Assembly: GCA_030622955.1 (NCBI GenBank)
Contig: JAUXFM010000007.1
Coordinates: forward strand, 1-45,044
DNA length: 45,044 nt
Direction: 5' to 3'
Source: Lentisphaerales bacterium
GTDB lineage: Bacteria; Verrucomicrobiota; Kiritimatiellia; JAUXFM01
The position numbers were made by a program, and so were the translations under genes. The notes beneath the pieces are model-generated. The model did no database searches and was not told the DNA's origin. It saw only the letters and a program-made list of their open reading frames with translations. Each line of letters opens with the position of its first letter. The first letter of the stretch is position 1. Positions 1 to 44,281 of this stretch are shown here, one piece after another.

Positions 1-437
1 GAAGACTCGGTCCAGTCTGAGCCTTCACACGTTCGGCCTTTCCGGCGCACACCCGCACCCCTCGACAAGCTCGGGGCCTCCGGCTGAAACAGAAGTTCTT
101 CTGTTCCCTTGGCCGACTCTCACGGGCCTGGGCGGTGAGTGAAATCAATCGTCGTGGGTGATGCTGGGGGTCGCTTCGCAAAGAGAAATAAGGAACGCCG
201 GACACGTCAAGCAGCTTCACGAACCGTCTGCTTGTTTAGCAGCAGGGGAACCCCCATGACCCTGTTCCCCTGGGCCGCAGGCTTCAAGCTTCCGGCCCTT
301 CGACAAGCTCAGTGTCCTCAGCATCAAGCATGCGGCCAACCCTTCCCCCATAGCCGGCACGAAAAAATGCAGAGACATTGTTCACGCCAGCCCCTTTTTC
401 GGGCTCGCTACGCTCGCGGGAACTAAGCAAGAACTAA

Positions 438-34928: not shown

Positions 34929-37628
34929 ATGGAAAAGAATTACGATCCCAAAACAATAGAAGAGAAGTGGTACAAGTGGTGCCTTGACAATAAGGTGTTC
35001 CACGGAGATCGAACCCGTGGCGGCGAGCCCTATTGCATTGTCATACCGCCGCCCAACGTCACGGGTGTGCTCCATATGGGGCATGCACTGAACAACACCA
35101 TTCAGGATATTCTCATTCGGTGGCAGCAGATGCAGGGCCGCAACGTTGTCTGGGTGCCTGGTACCGATCATGCAGGCATAGCCACGCAGAACGTTGTAGA
35201 GCGTTCTTTGCTGGAGCAAGGTAAGACGCGTGAGGATCTTGGCCGCGCGGCATTTCTTGAGCGTGTCTGGAAATGGCGCGAGGAATATGGTGGCACCATA
35301 ATTAATCAACTCAAGAAGCTTGGTTGCGCGTGTGACTGGGATCGTGAACGATTCACGATGGACGAAGGCTTGAGTGATGCGGTCGCCGAGGTGTTTGTGA
35401 GACTCTTTGAGAAGGGGCTGATCTATCGCGCGAACTACATCATTAACTGGTGTCCGCGTTGTCAGACGGCTCTGTCAGATGAAGAAAGTGAGCACGAAGA
35501 CGTCAACGGGAAGCTTTATTACATACGGTACGCCATTAAGGATGGTGGCCCGGATGACTTCATAACGGTTGCGACCACGCGTCCAGAGACACTGCTTGGC
35601 GATGTTGCTGTTGCGGTCAACCCGAATGATCCCCGGTACAGTGACCTACTCGATAAGACATTGATACTTCCGGCGCTTGGCCGCGAGATCCCGGTAATAT
35701 CTGATGAGTTTGTTGACCCCGAGTTCGGAACCGGCATGGTCAAGGTTACTCCTGCACATGATCCGAACGACTTCGAGATGGGACTCAGACACAAGCTTGA
35801 CCCGATCAATATCATGGATGAAGGCAGCATCATGAACGATGCGGCAGGGTCCTACAAGGGTTTGGACCGTTTCGAATGCAGAAAGAAATTGGTCGCCGAC
35901 CTGATTGAGGCCGGCCAGGTGGAGAAGGTTTTGGACCATCAGCATGCGGTTGGCCATTGCTACAGGTGTAGTACAATGGTTGAGCCGCGTCTTTCACGGC
36001 AGTGGTTTGTTAAGATGAAGCCGCTTGCCGAGCCGGCGCTGAAAGTCGTGAAGCAGGGCAAGATCAAGTTCGTGCCGGACCGATGGACAAAAGTCTATTC
36101 CGAATGGATGGAGAACATAAGGGACTGGTGCATCTCGCGTCAGATCTGGTGGGGCCACAGGATACCAGTCTTCTATTGTGACTCCTGCGACCACATGTGG
36201 GCACAGAAAGGTGTCGCAGAGAAATGTCCAGAATGCGGTGCAGATGATATTCGGCAGGACGAGGATGTCCTTGATACATGGTTCTCATCGTGGTTGTGGC
36301 CGTTCAGTACCTTTGGCTGGCCGGATGAGAATGAGAATTTGAAATTCTACTATCCGACGCATGACATAGTCACTGCTTCGGAGATTATCTTCTTCTGGAT
36401 TGCCAGGATGGTGATGTCCGGGCTGGAGTTCATGGGTGAGATTCCGTTCAGTACGGTCTATATTCATGGGACTGTCCGTGACGATCAGGGACGCAAGATG
36501 AGCAAGAGCCTTGGTAATGCCATTAATCCATTGGACATTATCGAGAACTTTAGTGCCGACGCTCTGCGGTACAGCCTGATTATGATTACGGCGACAGGCC
36601 AGGATGTCTACCTGTCGGATGACAAGTTCGAGATTGGTCGTAATTTTGGCACGAAACTCTGGAACGCCTCTCGCTTCATGAAGATGCATGAGGACCGGAT
36701 AACGGATGACAGAGGACAGAAGACGGTGGGAAGATCCTGCGAGTTCAACAAGGATCTTTTGACCAGTGATGATATGCATATCCTGGCGAAGTTGGACCAG
36801 GCGGTTACGGATTGCACCGATAACCTGCAGAAGTACCGCTTCAACGATGCTGCACATGTTCTCTACGAATTCGTATGGCACCAGTACTGTGATTGGTACG
36901 TGGAATACTCCAAGGAAGCTTTCTATGGTGAGGATGATGCCAGGAAGGAGCATGTTCTTGCCATTATGAATCATGTTCTCTCGAATAGCCTCAGACTGTT
37001 GCATCCGTTCATGCCGTTCATTACTGAAGAGTTGTGGCATGTCATGGGATTTGGTGCAGAGGATGAAACAATCATGCATGCCAGCTGGCCGGAAGCGCTG
37101 GGGCTGCTTGAGCTCGAGAAGAAGTGGGGTATAACCCCTGACATCGTAGAGTATGTTGACGATAAGCATGTGTTGATCCGTGCCGGCCGTACTATCAAGG
37201 CGGACTATGGCGTTCTGCCTACGGCGAAAACTGACTACATAATCAAGCCCGTGTCTGAGAAAGCACAGGGCCTGTTCGATGCCGACAAAGCTCAGATACA
37301 GACTCTGCTCCGTGCAGGTTCTGTAAAGATAGATGTTGCCTATGTTCCGGAGCAGGCTGTTCCGAGTATGGTGAGCAAGTTGGGCGTTGTCTATATGCCG
37401 CTCGAAGGGGCTATCGATCCGGAAGAGGAAGCGAAACGTCTTTCCACGCAGCTTGACAAGGTGGATGGGGATCTTCTGGGCGTATGCAGGAAGCTCGAGA
37501 ACGAGAACTTCGTTAACAGGGCACCTGAAGCGGTTGTTGAAAGGCAGCGCATTCTCAAAGTAGAGCTGACCGAGAAGTCTGAGAAGCTCAGGCTTCTACT
37601 TGAGAACGTGGCCGCAATGAGCAAGTGA
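34929..37628 (+). CDS. valS: Valyl-tRNA synthetase
   Basis: [65 protein letters not shown]-terminal coiled coil. Confidence 0.97.
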
Positions 37629-37654
37629 TTGTACCGGTAAATGAGGAGTCATCG

Positions 37655-39268
37655 ATGAAGCTGTCCGAGATGAAAGAGTGGCAGAGCCTGGAATTACATT
37701 GCGCCGACATGAGGGATTGTCATCTGCGCGAGATGTTTGCTGGTGACCAGGGCCGGGGCGAACGTTTGTCGCTGGAAGCTGCAGGACTGCTCCTCGATTA
37801 CTCCAAGAATCTTATCACAGACGAAACTATCGGGAAACTTCTTGAGCTTGCGGCTGCGTCAGGACTTGCGGGTGAGATCCAGAAGATGTTCACAGGCGAG
37901 CCAATCAATCGCACAGAGGGGCGATCCGTGCTGCATGTTGCGCTCCGCAACTGTTCAAACAGGCCTATCTTGGTCGATGGAGAGGACGTCATGCCGGGTG
38001 TCAATGCCGTCAATCGGAAGATGGCAGCGTTTGCCGACAAGGTCAGGTCCGGCAAGTGGCTTGGCCATACCGGGAAAAGGATCAGGAATATTGTAAACAT
38101 CGGCATCGGCGGATCGGATCTCGGGCCGGTGATGGCTTATGAGGCGCTCAAGCATTGCAGTGACAGGGAGCTCACGGTTCGCTTTGTCTCCAATGTGGAT
38201 GCGACGCATCTTGTCGAGCAGATTCGTGATCTGGATCCTGCCGAGACGCTTTTCATTGTTGCCTCAAAGACCTTCACCACGCAGGAAACGATGACCAATG
38301 CGCGGAGCGCCAGGGAATGGTGTCTGGCCGCACTTAGTGACGAAGCTGCGATCGCGAAGCATTTTGTTGCCGTTTCAACGAATGCAGAGGGAGTGGCCGA
38401 GTTCGGGATTTCTATAGACAACATGTTCGAATTCTGGGATTGGGTAGGAGGGCGATATTCGCTTTGTTCGGCGATTGGCCTACCATTGATGATCGCCATT
38501 GGTTCTCGAAACCACGGGGCGTTGCTCGAAGGGTTTCATGCCATGGATCGGCATTTTGTAGAGGCCCCGTTCGAGAAGAACATGCCCGTTCTGCTCGGAT
38601 TGCTGGGGATCTGGTACAACAACTTTTTCGGCGCGGAAACCTGTGCGATTCTTCCTTATGATCAGTACATGCATCGGTTTGCGGCTTACCTGCAACAGCT
38701 CGACATGGAGAGTAACGGCAAGAGTGTCGATAAAGAGGGCGACGCTGTTAAGTGGCAGACAGGCCAGGTGATATGGGGTGAGCCCGGCACTAATGGGCAG
38801 CATGCATTCTTCCAGTTGATTCACCAGGGCACAAAACTCATTCCTGCAGATTTCATTGGGTTCTGCAAGTCGCACAATGCTATTGGCGATCATCACGACA
38901 AGCTCATGGCCAATTTCTTTGCGCAGACTGAGGCGTTGGCCTTTGGTAAAACCGTAGAACAGGTGGAGGCCGAGGGCGCTGCAGAGGATATTGTCCCCTT
39001 TAAAGTGTTCGAAGGAAACAAGCCTACGAATACCATACTTGCTGATGAGCTGACCCCACAGGTACTTGGAGCCCTGATAGCCCTCTACGAGCACAAGGTT
39101 TTTGTTCAGGGCGTGATATGGGATGTTTACTCTTTTGATCAGTGGGGTGTGCAGTTGGGCAAGGTGCTGGCCGGTGCGATTCTGCCGGAGTTGAAGAATG
39201 AGACCACGATTCCCGGTCACGACAGCTCGACGAACGCTCTGATTGCGCGGTATTGGGAACGACGCTAG
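37655..39268 (+). CDS. pgi: Glucose-6-phosphate isomerase
   Basis: [68 protein letters not shown]. Confidence 0.97.
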
Positions 39269-39282
39269 TCTGTCTTCTTTGC

Positions 39283-39310
39283 GGACGGCTCGGCGATCCG
39301 TCCCTACCCA
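39283..39310 (-). repeat. REP-like GTAG-hairpin element, copy A
   Basis: Minus strand TGGGTAG-GGACGG-ATCGCCGAG-CCGTCC; perfect 6-bp stem; flank and loop identical to the 43424 copy. Confidence 0.7.
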
Positions 39311-39425
39311 GCGTGGAACCATTGGCGGCGAGTGATCCAGCAGTATGTCGATGCTCTTCTTGCCTGAACGCCGAAGCCACGCCGCCGCCGTGACAAGCTT
39401 GATACCTGAAACCGGTTCTGACGAC

Positions 39426-40298
39426 CTATGGCTTGCAGCCTTTCTTATGGTACATCAGCATCTTTGCGCCGAGCCGAGCGGCGGTGAATTGGGTGACCTG
39501 TGATCCTGGGATTGGCGCCACTTCGACGATATCTGCGCCAATGACATTGTGTGATTCGAAGACCTTGCGGAGCAGGGAGAGTAATCGGTGCCAGCCCAGG
39601 CCACCAGGTTCCGGCGTTCCCGTTCCAGGCGCGATTGAAGAATCAAGGGCGTCAATATCGATCGTGATGTAAACGTTCATGGACAGGCTGCTGACGATCT
39701 GGCTGTCGATCTCCTGATTATTGATCATGTCTGCGCCCCAGAAGACGGGCACCGATTCAGATTGAACGTAATCGTATTCCTCTGAAGACATGCTTCGTAT
39801 GCTGGCATGTACAGTTGGGTAGTCCAGTTCACGTAAGCGCCGCATGACGCAGGCGTGTGAGAGTTTGTTGCCCAGGTACTGGTCACGTAAGTCTGAATGT
39901 GCATCGATCTGGAGAATGGATACATCTGAGTGAATGGCATGAGCGGCTCTGACCAGTGGGAGCGTAACAGTATGTTCGCCACCCAGCCCCAGAAGGAAAC
40001 GACCGTCTGAAGCTGGAGCTTGGGCAGCTTTCTGAATTTCCGCAATTGCTTCTTCATCAGACGCTCCCTCAAGATCCATTGTGGGCAACGTCTGGACCGC
40101 AAGATCCATTGGCTCACGGTATTCCTCGTCGAAATCCTCAATCTCATGGCTTGCAATAAGAATTGATTCAGGCCCTTTTGCCGTTCCGGTCCCAAAGGTC
40201 ACAGAACGTTCATAGGGGATTGGCAGGACGGCGTAGGGCACAGTGGGGTCGGCCGCTGTTGCGGGATCGATGTCCAGAAAGAACGGTTGATGCTTCAT
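39426..40298 (-). CDS. speB: Agmatinase (ureohydrolase family)
   Basis: LLGLGGEHTVTLPLVRA, ILQIDAHSDLRDQYLGNKLSHACVMRRL, TIDIDALDSSIAPGTGTPEPGGLGWHR. Confidence 0.92.
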   Translation of the reverse strand: MKHQPFFLDIDPATAADPTVPYAVLPIPYERSVTFGTGTAKGPESILIASHEIEDFDEEYREPMDLAVQTLPTMDLEGASDEEAIAEIQKAAQAPASDGRFLLGLGGEHTVTLPLVRAAHAIHSDVSILQIDAHSDLRDQYLGNKLSHACVMRRLRELDYPTVHASIRSMSSEEYDYVQSESVPVFWGADMINNQEIDSQIVSSLSMNVYITIDIDALDSSIAPGTGTPEPGGLGWHRLLSLLRKVFESHNVIGADIVEVAPIPGSQVTQFTAARLGAKMLMYHKKGCKP

Positions 40299-40419
40299 AG
40301 GTAAATCCGAAATCACAATGCTCAAATGTTTCTAATCTATTCTTGTCTGTATCAACTGTGCGGTTTGGAGAATTAGAGTTTCGCGTTTGTTTCGGAATTC
40401 GTGCTTAGTGCTTCGAGTT

Positions 40420-42336
40420 TCATTTTTCAAAGTAGGTGTAGCCCTCCATGCCGTACTGGTAGGCATCGAGGATTTCCTGTTTTTCCTTTTCGGAGATAGA
40501 GCCGGCTGAGAGGGCCCGATTGGTTGATGCTTCGATTTGTTTCATTACCTCATCCGCATCATATTCCACATAGGAGAGGACTTTTGCCACGGTATCGCCC
40601 GCGATTTCCTCAACGTACTTGACCGTCTCGGTTTCCTGGTCAGCATGGACGAGCATGACATTGATATCTCCCAGAAGATTGTGCATATCGCCCAGGGTTT
40701 CCTGGTATGCACCGACCAGGAAGATGCCAACGTAGTAGTCGCTGTCATTGAGCTCATGAAGCGGTACCGTGTGACTCACATCATGAAGATCAATGAACCT
40801 ATCGACTTTGCCATCCGAATCACAGGTGATGTCTGCAAGGACAGCCTGCCTTGTGGGGCGTTCGTTGAGGCGATGGATGGGAGTGATCGGGAAGAGCTGG
40901 TCGAGAGCCCATGCATCGCTGATCGACTGAAAGACACTGAAATTGCCGTAGTATACATCGGCGATGGCCTGGTCCAGTCGCTCCATCTCGTCAGGAATGT
41001 ACTTTTGTCCTTCTATGAGCTTGGCAATGCGCCGGATAATGTGCCAGAAGATGGTTTCTGCCATGGCGCGTTCGCGCAGTGAAACATTGCCCTGCATGAA
41101 TGCAGCGCGAATCTCGTCACGGTAGTAGACGGCATCGTGGTACGCTTCCTGTGTATTGCGAGGATTGAGCGTGTCACAGACTTCTTTGATGTTGTGGAGC
41201 ATCTCGGGCGAATCCTCATCGAGTTTGCTGGGGATGGTTTGTGGATCGAACTTCCTTACATCCAGTATGTTGAAAATGAGCACCGAGTGATGGGCAACCA
41301 CGGCCCGTCCCGATTCGCTGACGATCATGGGGTGAGGGATCTTGCTTTCGTCGCACACGTTCATGATGACTTCCACAACATCGACCGCGTATTCCCTTGT
41401 TGAGTAGTTGCGGCTGCTAGGGAAGTTTGTGTGTGAGCCATCGTAATCGATTGCCAGGCCGCCACCGACATCGATAATGCCCATGGCTGCACCCTCCTTG
41501 ACAAGCGCGGCATAGAAACGTGCTGCTTCTGAGAGAGCGTTCCTTACCTTGCGTATGTCGGGGATTTGACTGCCAAGGTGATAGTGAAGCATCTGCAGGC
41601 AGTCCAACTTGTTTCGTTCGCGAAGATAGTCGACCATTTCGATTATCTGGGCCGAGTCCAGGCCGAACTTGCTGCGATCGCCTCCCGATGCATCCCAGCG
41701 ACCACCGGCTCGGCTCGAGAGTTTTGCCCTTACGCCGAGATTTGGCCTGACGTTCAGTAGTTCGGCGCGTTCAATGATCAACTCGAGTTCAGCCGGCATC
41801 TCGATGACAATAAGGACCTTCATGCCAAGCTTCTGGGTTTGGAGTGCAAGATCGACGAATTCTTCGTCCTTGTATCCGTTACAGATGAGGAGTGCTTGCT
41901 CGTCTTCCATGTAGGCGGCCGCTGCTATGAGCTCAGCTTTGCTGCCGACCTCGAGCCCATGGTTATATTCACGACCGAACTTGATGATGCTTTCGACGAC
42001 CTTGAACTGCTGGTTGACCTTTACGGGGTAGACGCCCCGGTATTGGCCTTTATAGCCGGCCTCGGAGATAGCCTTTCGGAATCGTTCGTTAACATGTTGG
42101 ATGCGTGTCTGCAGAATGTCGGGGAAGCGGATAAGGGCTGGCATGCCGATTTCACGTTTCTCCATTTCGGCCACGATATCCATGAGGCTGACGGTCATCT
42201 TCGAATTGCGACCGCCGGGCCGGACCAGCATTTCGCCAGTTTTGGAGACATCGAAGAAGTTTCGGCCCCAGTTGCGGACACCGTAAAGTTCGGAAGAGTT
42301 TTCGCTAGTCCATCGAGTAAGCGCTTCCTGCTGCAT
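40420..42336 (-). CDS. speA: Biosynthetic arginine decarboxylase
   Basis: YGVRNWGRNFFDVSKTGEM, YKGQYRGVYPVKVNQQFKVVE, LGSQIPDIRKVRNALSEAARFYAAL, IDVGGGLAIDYDGSHTNFPSSRNYS. Confidence 0.96.
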   Translation of the reverse strand: MQQEALTRWTSENSSELYGVRNWGRNFFDVSKTGEMLVRPGGRNSKMTVSLMDIVAEMEKREIGMPALIRFPDILQTRIQHVNERFRKAISEAGYKGQYRGVYPVKVNQQFKVVESIIKFGREYNHGLEVGSKAELIAAAAYMEDEQALLICNGYKDEEFVDLALQTQKLGMKVLIVIEMPAELELIIERAELLNVRPNLGVRAKLSSRAGGRWDASGGDRSKFGLDSAQIIEMVDYLRERNKLDCLQMLHYHLGSQIPDIRKVRNALSEAARFYAALVKEGAAMGIIDVGGGLAIDYDGSHTNFPSSRNYSTREYAVDVVEVIMNVCDESKIPHPMIVSESGRAVVAHHSVLIFNILDVRKFDPQTIPSKLDEDSPEMLHNIKEVCDTLNPRNTQEAYHDAVYYRDEIRAAFMQGNVSLRERAMAETIFWHIIRRIAKLIEGQKYIPDEMERLDQAIADVYYGNFSVFQSISDAWALDQLFPITPIHRLNERPTRQAVLADITCDSDGKVDRFIDLHDVSHTVPLHELNDSDYYVGIFLVGAYQETLGDMHNLLGDINVMLVHADQETETVKYVEEIAGDTVAKVLSYVEYDADEVMKQIEASTNRALSAGSISEKEKQEILDAYQYGMEGYTYFEK

Positions 42337-42355
42337 TGTTTAATGCCTCCTGGGG

Positions 42356-43204
42356 CTAAGCGCGTCGGTTACCTGAGCCAAAGATGTTTGTGAACGGGTT
42401 ATCGTCCCGTTCCTGGTGTACGTCGGCCTCGGATTTCTTCTTGCCGCCGTATGGTGGGGGGCCGATGATCACCTTGTCAACCGGTTCTTCGGGTTCCTGC
42501 GCAAAAAAGGGTGGCCAGCTTTTATGCCCCGGGTGTTTTGCGGCTTCTTGCATCTGTACCATTCTGTATTCGCGACCGGCAGAGAAGAAGACGAATATTG
42601 CGATGAAGATCAACCAAGGGTGTTGCAATTTCAGGCCGAATAGAGCCATGAGTACGGCAATGACCTTGCCAAGCCTCGCGGCGAAAAGCGTTGCACGGAG
42701 CCGCCCGAGTTTAGGTGTAAGCATCGCTCTGACGACACGTCCGCCGTCCATGGGGAAGGCAGGCATAAGATTGAAGACGGTCAGGGATAGATTCACGGCA
42801 CCAAGAAACATGATGATGTTAAAGCTGTAGGGCGGCTCCAGGATTAAGGGTAATGGTAAGTGGGGACCCACGAAGAGCCCCATCAGTCCTAGCCCGAGAC
42901 TAACGGCTGGTCCTGCTATCGCCATAAGGAATTCATCCAAGGGTTTTGTGGGGATGCGTTCCATTTGTGCCGCACCGCCGAGGAACATCAGAGTTATTTC
43001 CCTGACACGGCATCCCTTTCGCATGGCGACCAGAGAATGGCCAAGTTCATGGAGCGCTATGCTCACGAGCAACCCGATTGCGATCAATAGTCCGTGAATT
43101 GGTCCCCATTGGAATGCCAGGTAAAGCAGAAGGAGGACGAGGGAGATGTGTACCTTTATCGGGATTCCCCAGACCGTTGCTATCTTATAAGAGGCCTTGA
43201 ACAT
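42356..43204 (-). CDS. Site-2 protease family (M50) membrane metalloprotease
   Basis: SIALHELGHSLVAMRKGCRVREITLMFLGGAAQME (HExxH), NLMPAFPMDGGRVVRAML. Confidence 0.92.
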   Translation of the reverse strand: MFKASYKIATVWGIPIKVHISLVLLLLYLAFQWGPIHGLLIAIGLLVSIALHELGHSLVAMRKGCRVREITLMFLGGAAQMERIPTKPLDEFLMAIAGPAVSLGLGLMGLFVGPHLPLPLILEPPYSFNIIMFLGAVNLSLTVFNLMPAFPMDGGRVVRAMLTPKLGRLRATLFAARLGKVIAVLMALFGLKLQHPWLIFIAIFVFFSAGREYRMVQMQEAAKHPGHKSWPPFFAQEPEEPVDKVIIGPPPYGGKKKSEADVHQERDDNPFTNIFGSGNRRA

Positions 43205-43423
43205 GGCGAGATAATGTACAGGAATCGAGGCTCTGGTGTCCAGCGTATCCATCGCGGATTGCCACGTCGGCGACCGGGGCGACAAGTGGCCGCTTGGCCG
43301 CAGGCCGACGCGGCGGACCGCAGATTTGGGATTGCGGATTATCTGCCTTTGCAGACAGGCATGGAGGGATGATCTTCCGCGCGTTCACTGAAGAAGAAGC
43401 ACCCATACGCATTGAATTAGCGT

Positions 43424-43451
43424 TGGGTAGGGCGTGATCGCCGAGCGCGCC
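43424..43451 (+). repeat. REP-like GTAG-hairpin element, copy B
   Basis: TGGGTAG-GGCGTG-ATCGCCGAG-CGCGCC; 6-bp stem with one T.G; followed by a second hairpin CGCCCCC(51-57)/GGGGGCG(73-79). Confidence 0.7.
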
Positions 43452-43585: not shown

Positions 43586-44281
43586 ATGAAACTGTCTATT
43601 GTAATACCGGTCTATAACGAGAAATCCACGATTCACGCTCTCCTCGAGAAAGTGCTTGCTGAGGATGTCGGCCTCGAGAAGGAAATTATCCTGGTCGACG
43701 ATTATTCTACTGATGGGACCAGATCGGAAATAGAGAAGCTCAAGGAGAAGCATTCTGACTGGAAGTTTGTCTTCCATGAAAAGAATCAGGGCAAAGGTGC
43801 GGCGTTGCAGAGCGGGTTCGCTGCTGTGACCGGCGATGTCGTGCTGATCCAGGATGCTGATCTGGAATATGACCCGAAAGAGTATGGGAGATTGTTGGGG
43901 CCGATACTCGACGGGCATGCGGACGTTGTCTACGGCTCACGTTTCCTGGGTGGTGGCCCGCACAGGGTGGTGTATTACTGGCACTCAGTGGGCAATCGCC
44001 TGATCACCACATTTTCGAACATGATGACAAACCTGAACCTTACCGATGTTGAAGTCTGTTACAAGGTGTTCAAGAAGGAAGTGCTCAAATCAATCAAGTT
44101 GACAGAGAAGCGGTTCGGTATAGAAAATGAAATCACGGCCAAGATCGCGCGCGGTGAATGGCGGATCTACGAGGTGCCGATCTCCTATTACGGACGCAGC
44201 TATGACGAGGGCAAGAAGATTACCTGGAAAGATGGTGTCCGTGCCTTATGGTGCATTCTGAAATACCGGTTCTGTCGTTGA
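43586..44281 (+). CDS. Family 2 glycosyltransferase (dolichyl-phosphate mannosyltransferase-like)
   Basis: MKLSIVIPVYNEKSTIHALLEKV, ILVDDYSTDGTRSEI, NQGKGAALQSGFAAVTGDVVLIQDADLEYDPKEYG. Confidence 0.92.
   Translation: MKLSIVIPVYNEKSTIHALLEKVLAEDVGLEKEIILVDDYSTDGTRSEIEKLKEKHSDWKFVFHEKNQGKGAALQSGFAAVTGDVVLIQDADLEYDPKEYGRLLGPILDGHADVVYGSRFLGGGPHRVVYYWHSVGNRLITTFSNMMTNLNLTDVEVCYKVFKKEVLKSIKLTEKRFGIENEITAKIARGEWRIYEVPISYYGRSYDEGKKITWKDGVRALWCILKYRFCR

Follow-up and report, generated by a model that had tools for sequence, protein, structure and literature searches.

Two GTAG-tagged hairpins with a common centre

The window, i.e. the whole stretch of DNA analyzed here (45,044 nucleotides), belongs to a 2.65-Mb MAG of the class Kiritimatiellia (200 contigs, 90.6% complete). 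It carries two short hairpins preceded by GTAG (Table 1). Copy A is found between the convergent ORFs 37625-39268 (plus) and 39426-40325 (minus), 15 bp past the stop of the former, and copy B between the divergent ORFs 42356-43285 (minus) and 43586-44281 (plus), 135 bp upstream of the latter. They are separated by 4.1 kb and do not form a close inverted pair. The initial annotation had described a pair with identical flank and centre and a covarying stem; both copies were found at the places indicated, with identical GGGTAG flanks, and the three stem pairs said to be altered on both arms with pairing kept are pairs 3, 4 and 5, one of which becomes a G-T wobble. The DNA fold of the two copies is the same, ....((((((.((...)).)))))), with four unpaired nucleotides (GTAG), 6 bp, an A-G mismatch, 2 bp and a GCC triloop. 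The 9-nt loop described earlier is identical in both copies but is not a simple loop, as the mismatch, two pairs and the triloop lie within it.

The exact form, GTAG followed by a 6-bp stem and a 9-nt centre, is present at two sites in the window, copies A and B. First-order Markov shuffles of the window contained a mean of 0.55 such sites and two sites with one centre were obtained in 0/100 shuffles; a chance origin of the pair was rejected on this basis. With R1, a covariance model built from seven copies, A and B among them, the two copies scored 47-48 bits (E about 1e-8) and the next match in the window 11 bits.

Table 1. Coordinates of the hairpins, their parts and flanks in the window, and of RAYT genes in other genomes.
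Feature	Position	Strand	Sequence or remark
REP copy A	39283-39311	minus	CTGGGTAG-GGACGG-ATCGCCGAG-CCGTCC
Copy A, GTAG tag	39307-39304	minus	GTAG
Copy A, 5' arm	39303-39298	minus	GGACGG
Copy A, 3' arm	39288-39283	minus	CCGTCC
Copy A, A-G mismatch	39297/39289	minus
Copy A, inner 2-bp helix	39296-39295/39291-39290	minus
Copy A, triloop	39294-39292	minus	GCC
Copy A, 5' flank resembling spacer module	39312-39335	minus	..CGCCGCCAATGGTTCCACG; z about 7 vs shuffles
REP copy B	43423-43451	plus	TTGGGTAG-GGCGTG-ATCGCCGAG-CGCGCC
Copy B, GTAG tag	43427-43430	plus	GTAG
Copy B, 5' arm	43431-43436	plus	GGCGTG
Copy B, 3' arm	43446-43451	plus	CGCGCC
Copy B, A-G mismatch	43437/43445	plus
Copy B, inner 2-bp helix	43438-43439/43443-43444	plus
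Copy B, triloop	43440-43442	plus	GCC
Copy B, 5' spacer module	43390-43422	plus	GAAGAAGAAGCACCCATACGCATTGAATTAGCG; diverged form in about a dozen other REPs of the same genome
REP-flanked RAYT genes	L199, L216, L220, L222, L224, L227, L229, L231, L233, L234
priA + RAYT	L248 1262-4276 = Pontiella sulfatireligans F21 G030:C2:1422761-1425775	minus	1005-aa frame
leuS + RAYT	L251 874-4125 / L192 (G039:C64)	minus	between editing domain and remaining catalytic core
CCA tRNA nucleotidyltransferase + RAYT	L252 1363-3417 / L195 (G015:C42)	minus	between nucleotidyltransferase part and HD domain
PglX-like methyltransferase + RAYT	L247 519-5030 (G006:C208)	minus	internal
B12/radical-SAM protein + RAYT	L249 858-3194 (G030)	plus	towards C-terminus
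ThiD + RAYT	L250 652-2142 (G030)	plus	C-terminal fusion

The hairpin is dispersed in intergenic DNA of the same genome

A search of the MAG with R1 gave 33 matches, 25 of them at E<0.1 (seven being the training copies), and GTAG was present in nearly all. This copy number is below typical REP counts. Among the 30 best matches, 26 were outside ORFs, whereas ORFs represent 82% of the loci (binomial P 8e-16), and many copies sit just 3' of genes. Inverted pairs were observed on three contigs, with GTAG outward on C28 and inward on C48 and C53, and a head-to-tail pair on C45. The dispersed, structure-selected element suggested from the two copies was thus recovered, with 25 copies at E<0.1 in the genome instead of only two, a largely intergenic location and covarying stems. 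Its dispersal in this genome held true; its restriction to this genome did not, the element being spread through the phylum.

About a dozen of these copies, A and B probably among them, have a diverged spacer, GCAAGAAAGACACACCCACCACCATTGATTTCACGCTGG, in common. The significance of this spacer is biased upward because the consensus was read from some of the same flanks. A spacer-like site at 138-160 (minus) of the window has no recognisable hairpin and is within chance expectation. Inspection by eye is suggestive of REP and spacer having once formed a 62-64-bp unit.

Stem pairing is conserved across the phylum

A scan of GTDB genomes with the exact pattern, in which only the two outer stem pairs were fixed, identified at least 119 stretches, with about 7 expected by chance according to our own estimate. 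Nearly all the matches listed belong to Verrucomicrobiota (Kiritimatiellales, Opitutales, Verrucomicrobiales) and Lentisphaerae. All six stem pairs are formed in 124 of the 140 matches listed, and these 124 comprise 25 stem types; those listed with four or fewer pairs come mostly from unrelated Proteobacteria and similar genomes. When 120 copies taken from 61 loci were aligned on the model, 98.9% of the cells were paired and 166 double-change cells were counted compared to 46 in shuffles. The covariation score was 0.585 (0.151 shuffled); as this alignment was fitted to the structure, partners were slid as a control, and the score then reached at most 0.112. Covariation between the arms, first noted on two copies, therefore holds on 120.

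With the model, matches at E<=1e-4 were obtained under strict filters in 42 of the 241 genomes of a phylum sample, and some relatives carry at least 150 copies. Eight unrelated genomes, mostly GC-rich and picked for their chance pattern matches, gave zero model matches. Model matches were present in MAGs labelled Deltaproteobacteria, Bacteroidetes, Latescibacterota and Blastopirellula, which we ascribe to mislabelling, contamination or transfer.

The centre is also paired. Its positions 2/8 and 3/7 covary across the REP family, and both pairs are kept in the centres ATCGCCGAG, ACCGCCGGG, ACTGCCAGG, CTCGCCGAG, TTCGCCGAA and CTGGCCCAG. Some centres additionally pair 1/9 and the A-G mismatch is then gone; one hairpin subfamily, with the CTGGCCCAG centre, is devoid of it.

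Two kinds of variant were observed. The REPs of L234 and L244 (L205) carry GTGG in place of GTAG and their basal stem pairs are changed to AA/TT, which suggests that the tag and the foot of the stem vary in concert. The RAYT-side REPs of L227 (G006; 739-767, 1448-1476 and 2056-2084) lack two pairs in the register of the model; on visual inspection, an alternative fold places a tandem G-A/A-G mismatch in mid-stem, which recalls the bulge of E. coli REPs.

The hairpins flank one clade of short RAYTs

RAYTs were detected by whole-genome searches with PF01797 and NF047646 followed by R1 scans of the loci, PF01797 alone being too insensitive for many short RAYTs. Zero RAYTs were retrieved with phmmer from the 8-kb GTDB REP loci L049-L167, probably because the queries, the long RAYTs of the window's genome, were of the wrong type. 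Ten short RAYT genes, distributed over 8 genomes, are accompanied by these REPs at a distance of at most about 150 bp, in most cases on either side of the gene (Table 1). At L199, for instance, the RAYT gene lies between two REPs with GTAG ends outward, in about 518 bp overall. All ten belong to one 12-member clade (SH-aLRT 90), and the REP-flanked label changes 2 times on the RAYT tree versus 9.3 when shuffled; for the two further members, L197 and L198, no significant match to this REP was obtained up to 1.5 kb away. GTAG is kept on one strand in 33/38 distinct RAYT-adjacent copies. These results support the earlier reading of the hairpins as GTAG REPs mobilised by RAYTs, since the REPs directly flank RAYTs in eight relatives.

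The REP-flanked clade corresponds to NF047646, with the motifs DHxH, WQx4[E/D]HxxR and Y…NP. The second motif is found in 10/10 REP-flanked RAYTs and aligns with WQPRFWEHAIR of E. coli TnpA_REP (4er8), a segment whose residues have been assigned to GTAG recognition (PMC6006769). The HUH and Y...NP core is present in the ten proteins, with equivalents of W94/Q95/E(D)100/H101/R104.

At L220 and L229 (G035:C3), two near-alike REP-flanked RAYTs were seen with regular REP arrays alongside, of about 162-bp and 221-bp period.

Alternative origins of the hairpins

The hairpins might be transcriptional, conserved as terminators or mRNA 3'-end stabilisers for their function in RNA and with no tie to transposition. 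Such a function would agree with the many copies just 3' of genes, copy A included, with the G-T pairs found in stems and with the stabilisation of mRNA by REPs in other bacteria. However, A and B have no T-tract after the hairpin and no terminator-like site, which ruled out an intrinsic terminator, and a known Rfam RNA was ruled out with zero matches at E<=1. The one-strand conservation of GTAG beside RAYTs and the grouping of the REPs around one RAYT clade also argue against a purely transcriptional element, which we consider improbable; these REPs may nevertheless have a secondary role in RNA.

A second candidate for mobilising the REPs is encoded in the genome of the window itself. The intact RAYT that the initial annotation proposed to look for was not recovered there, the assembly yielding long Y1 types only: eight full-length Y1_Tnp genes (335-357 aa) and two fragments (C175, C151), all of types other than the REP-flanked one. 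Neither the eight nor the two fragments are known to carry the GTAG-recognition residues or to adjoin these REPs. Two of the eight proteins have weak Bac_DnaA_C matches. The number of these genes and the missing short RAYT would designate the long transposases as the agents of dispersal in their own genome. Yet no R1 hairpin was found in their flanks (searched to about 1.5 kb, some being ended by contig ends), the GTAG-recognition motif WQ..[ED]H..R is absent from all eight, and they form a separate deep clade resembling subclass 2.1/2.3, whose members were reported without flanking REPs (PMC6006769). Mobilisation by the long Y1 proteins is thus very unlikely. Most improbable of all are sites bound by a host protein, either a nucleoid protein or gyrase, and propagated by recombination independently of RAYTs: REP roles of that kind are known elsewhere and the intergenic bias would suit them, but RAYT adjacency in eight genomes stands against them, as do stems free in sequence yet strict in pairing, which suggest that the folded strand is recognised rather than the duplex.

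A model for dispersal by a short RAYT

Copies A and B are, with high probability, GTAG-tagged REPs, i.e. single-stranded DNA substrates dispersed by a short RAYT, and here they probably form a residual population. Each REP would be a non-autonomous single-strand substrate made of GGTAG and a 6-bp complementary stem of free sequence, beyond which an A-G mismatch, two more pairs and a triloop usually follow. The short RAYT, an HUH tyrosine transposase of 150-200 aa, would recognise, on one strand, GTAG together with the irregular hairpin, and by cutting and rejoining the folded strand would scatter copies into intergenic DNA; cleavage and transposition of these REPs are proposed by analogy with E. 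coli TnpA_REP. Selection on recognition of the folded form would hold the tag and the centre whilst the stems drift in compensating pairs.

As no cognate RAYT was found in the genome of the window, its copies are read as residual; the RAYT mobilising them would have acted in trans and would since have been lost, or else be encoded in the unassembled ~9%. The cognate RAYT is likely to be truly absent, the assembly being 90.6% complete, and we infer its loss; loss of REPtrons has been described in some strains (PMC3733652). A and B are now probably an immobile residue, or else a RAYT encoded in the unassembled part still acts on them. This genome thus provides a test case for the fate of REP copies deprived of their cognate RAYT.

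RAYTs in frame inside host genes

RAYTs of a type other than the REP-flanked clade were observed in frame within host genes or, in two cases, towards or at the C-terminal end of the host protein (Table 1). In priA of Pontiella sulfatireligans F21, a complete RAYT domain separates the N-terminal part from the helicase, with zero frameshifts or stops, and this gene is the sole priA match above cut-off in that genome. The interrupted leuS is likewise the sole leuS above the family cut-off in its genome; a 29-nt inverted repeat with 93% complementarity delimits its insert (L192). The insert in the CCA-adding enzyme gene (L195) has inverted repeats at its borders, with 33-nt units encoding PVAQTPSPAEK-like peptides. 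Given the continuous frames, the transposase domain must either be tolerated by the hosts or be processed in some way. Intragenic insertions of REPs have been described (PMC3733652), and the open-access literature gave no account of an entire RAYT integrated in frame; the in-frame RAYTs of priA, of leuS and of the gene for the CCA-adding enzyme may be more novel than the REP family.

Comparison with known REP/RAYT systems

No literature on the present REP family or on REPs of Kiritimatiellia was found in open access. The superfamily of GTAG-tagged REPs (Di Nocera et al. 2013) includes GTAG-20 of Opitutus terrae, a member of Verrucomicrobia (PMC3733652), and the present hairpins therefore represent a newly recognised family of a known kind of element. 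In both superfamily and family, GTAG marks one end of a 20-40-bp hairpin, stem changes between subfamilies are complementary, the repeats are intergenic and include dimers, and RAYTs are flanked by them. The O. terrae repeats carry mostly GTGG and the present family GTAG; the two consensus sequences may still coincide. In contrast to GTAG-20, the present family is common to many genera and several classes, with tag and centre unchanged.

The long Y1 transposases (subclass 2.1/2.3, 'TIRYT'), eight of which are encoded in the genome of the window, have the HUH-Y1 fold in common with RAYTs but neither these REPs as flanks nor the GTAG-recognition motif. A mechanistic parallel is offered by the E. 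coli REPtron (group 2 / subclass 2.2; PMC8266576, 4er8), in which GTAG and an irregular hairpin are read as single-stranded DNA: TnpA_REP cleaves single-stranded REPs, for which it requires GTAG as well as an unpaired region within the stem (PMC8266576). The present hairpins are likewise shaped, and W94, Q95, E100, H101 and R104 of the E. coli protein have equivalents in the present RAYTs. However, E. coli REPs have an AA/GC bulge, a longer stem and a free loop, whereas here one A-G mismatch lies above 6 bp and the centre is conserved, and the present RAYTs, judged by their motifs (DH[VLI]H, WQ, YIR.NP), seem closer to subclass 2.7/2.5 than to 2.2.

The REP/RAYT system is thereby extended to a phylum that has been little studied, across which a defined family is paired with a specific clade of short RAYTs, and the conservation of one such pairing is unusually wide. 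The large covariation data set predicts the determinants of recognition, with tag and centre fixed and the stem free. The balance is even as to whether a single REP-RAYT code (GGTAG-GG, covarying stem, A-G mismatch and [T/C]CGCCG[A/G] centre) has been conserved over class-level divergence in Verrucomicrobiota and a few genomes carrying other labels, and not re-evolved in each species; if so, natural variation over hundreds of stems would define what the transposase reads.
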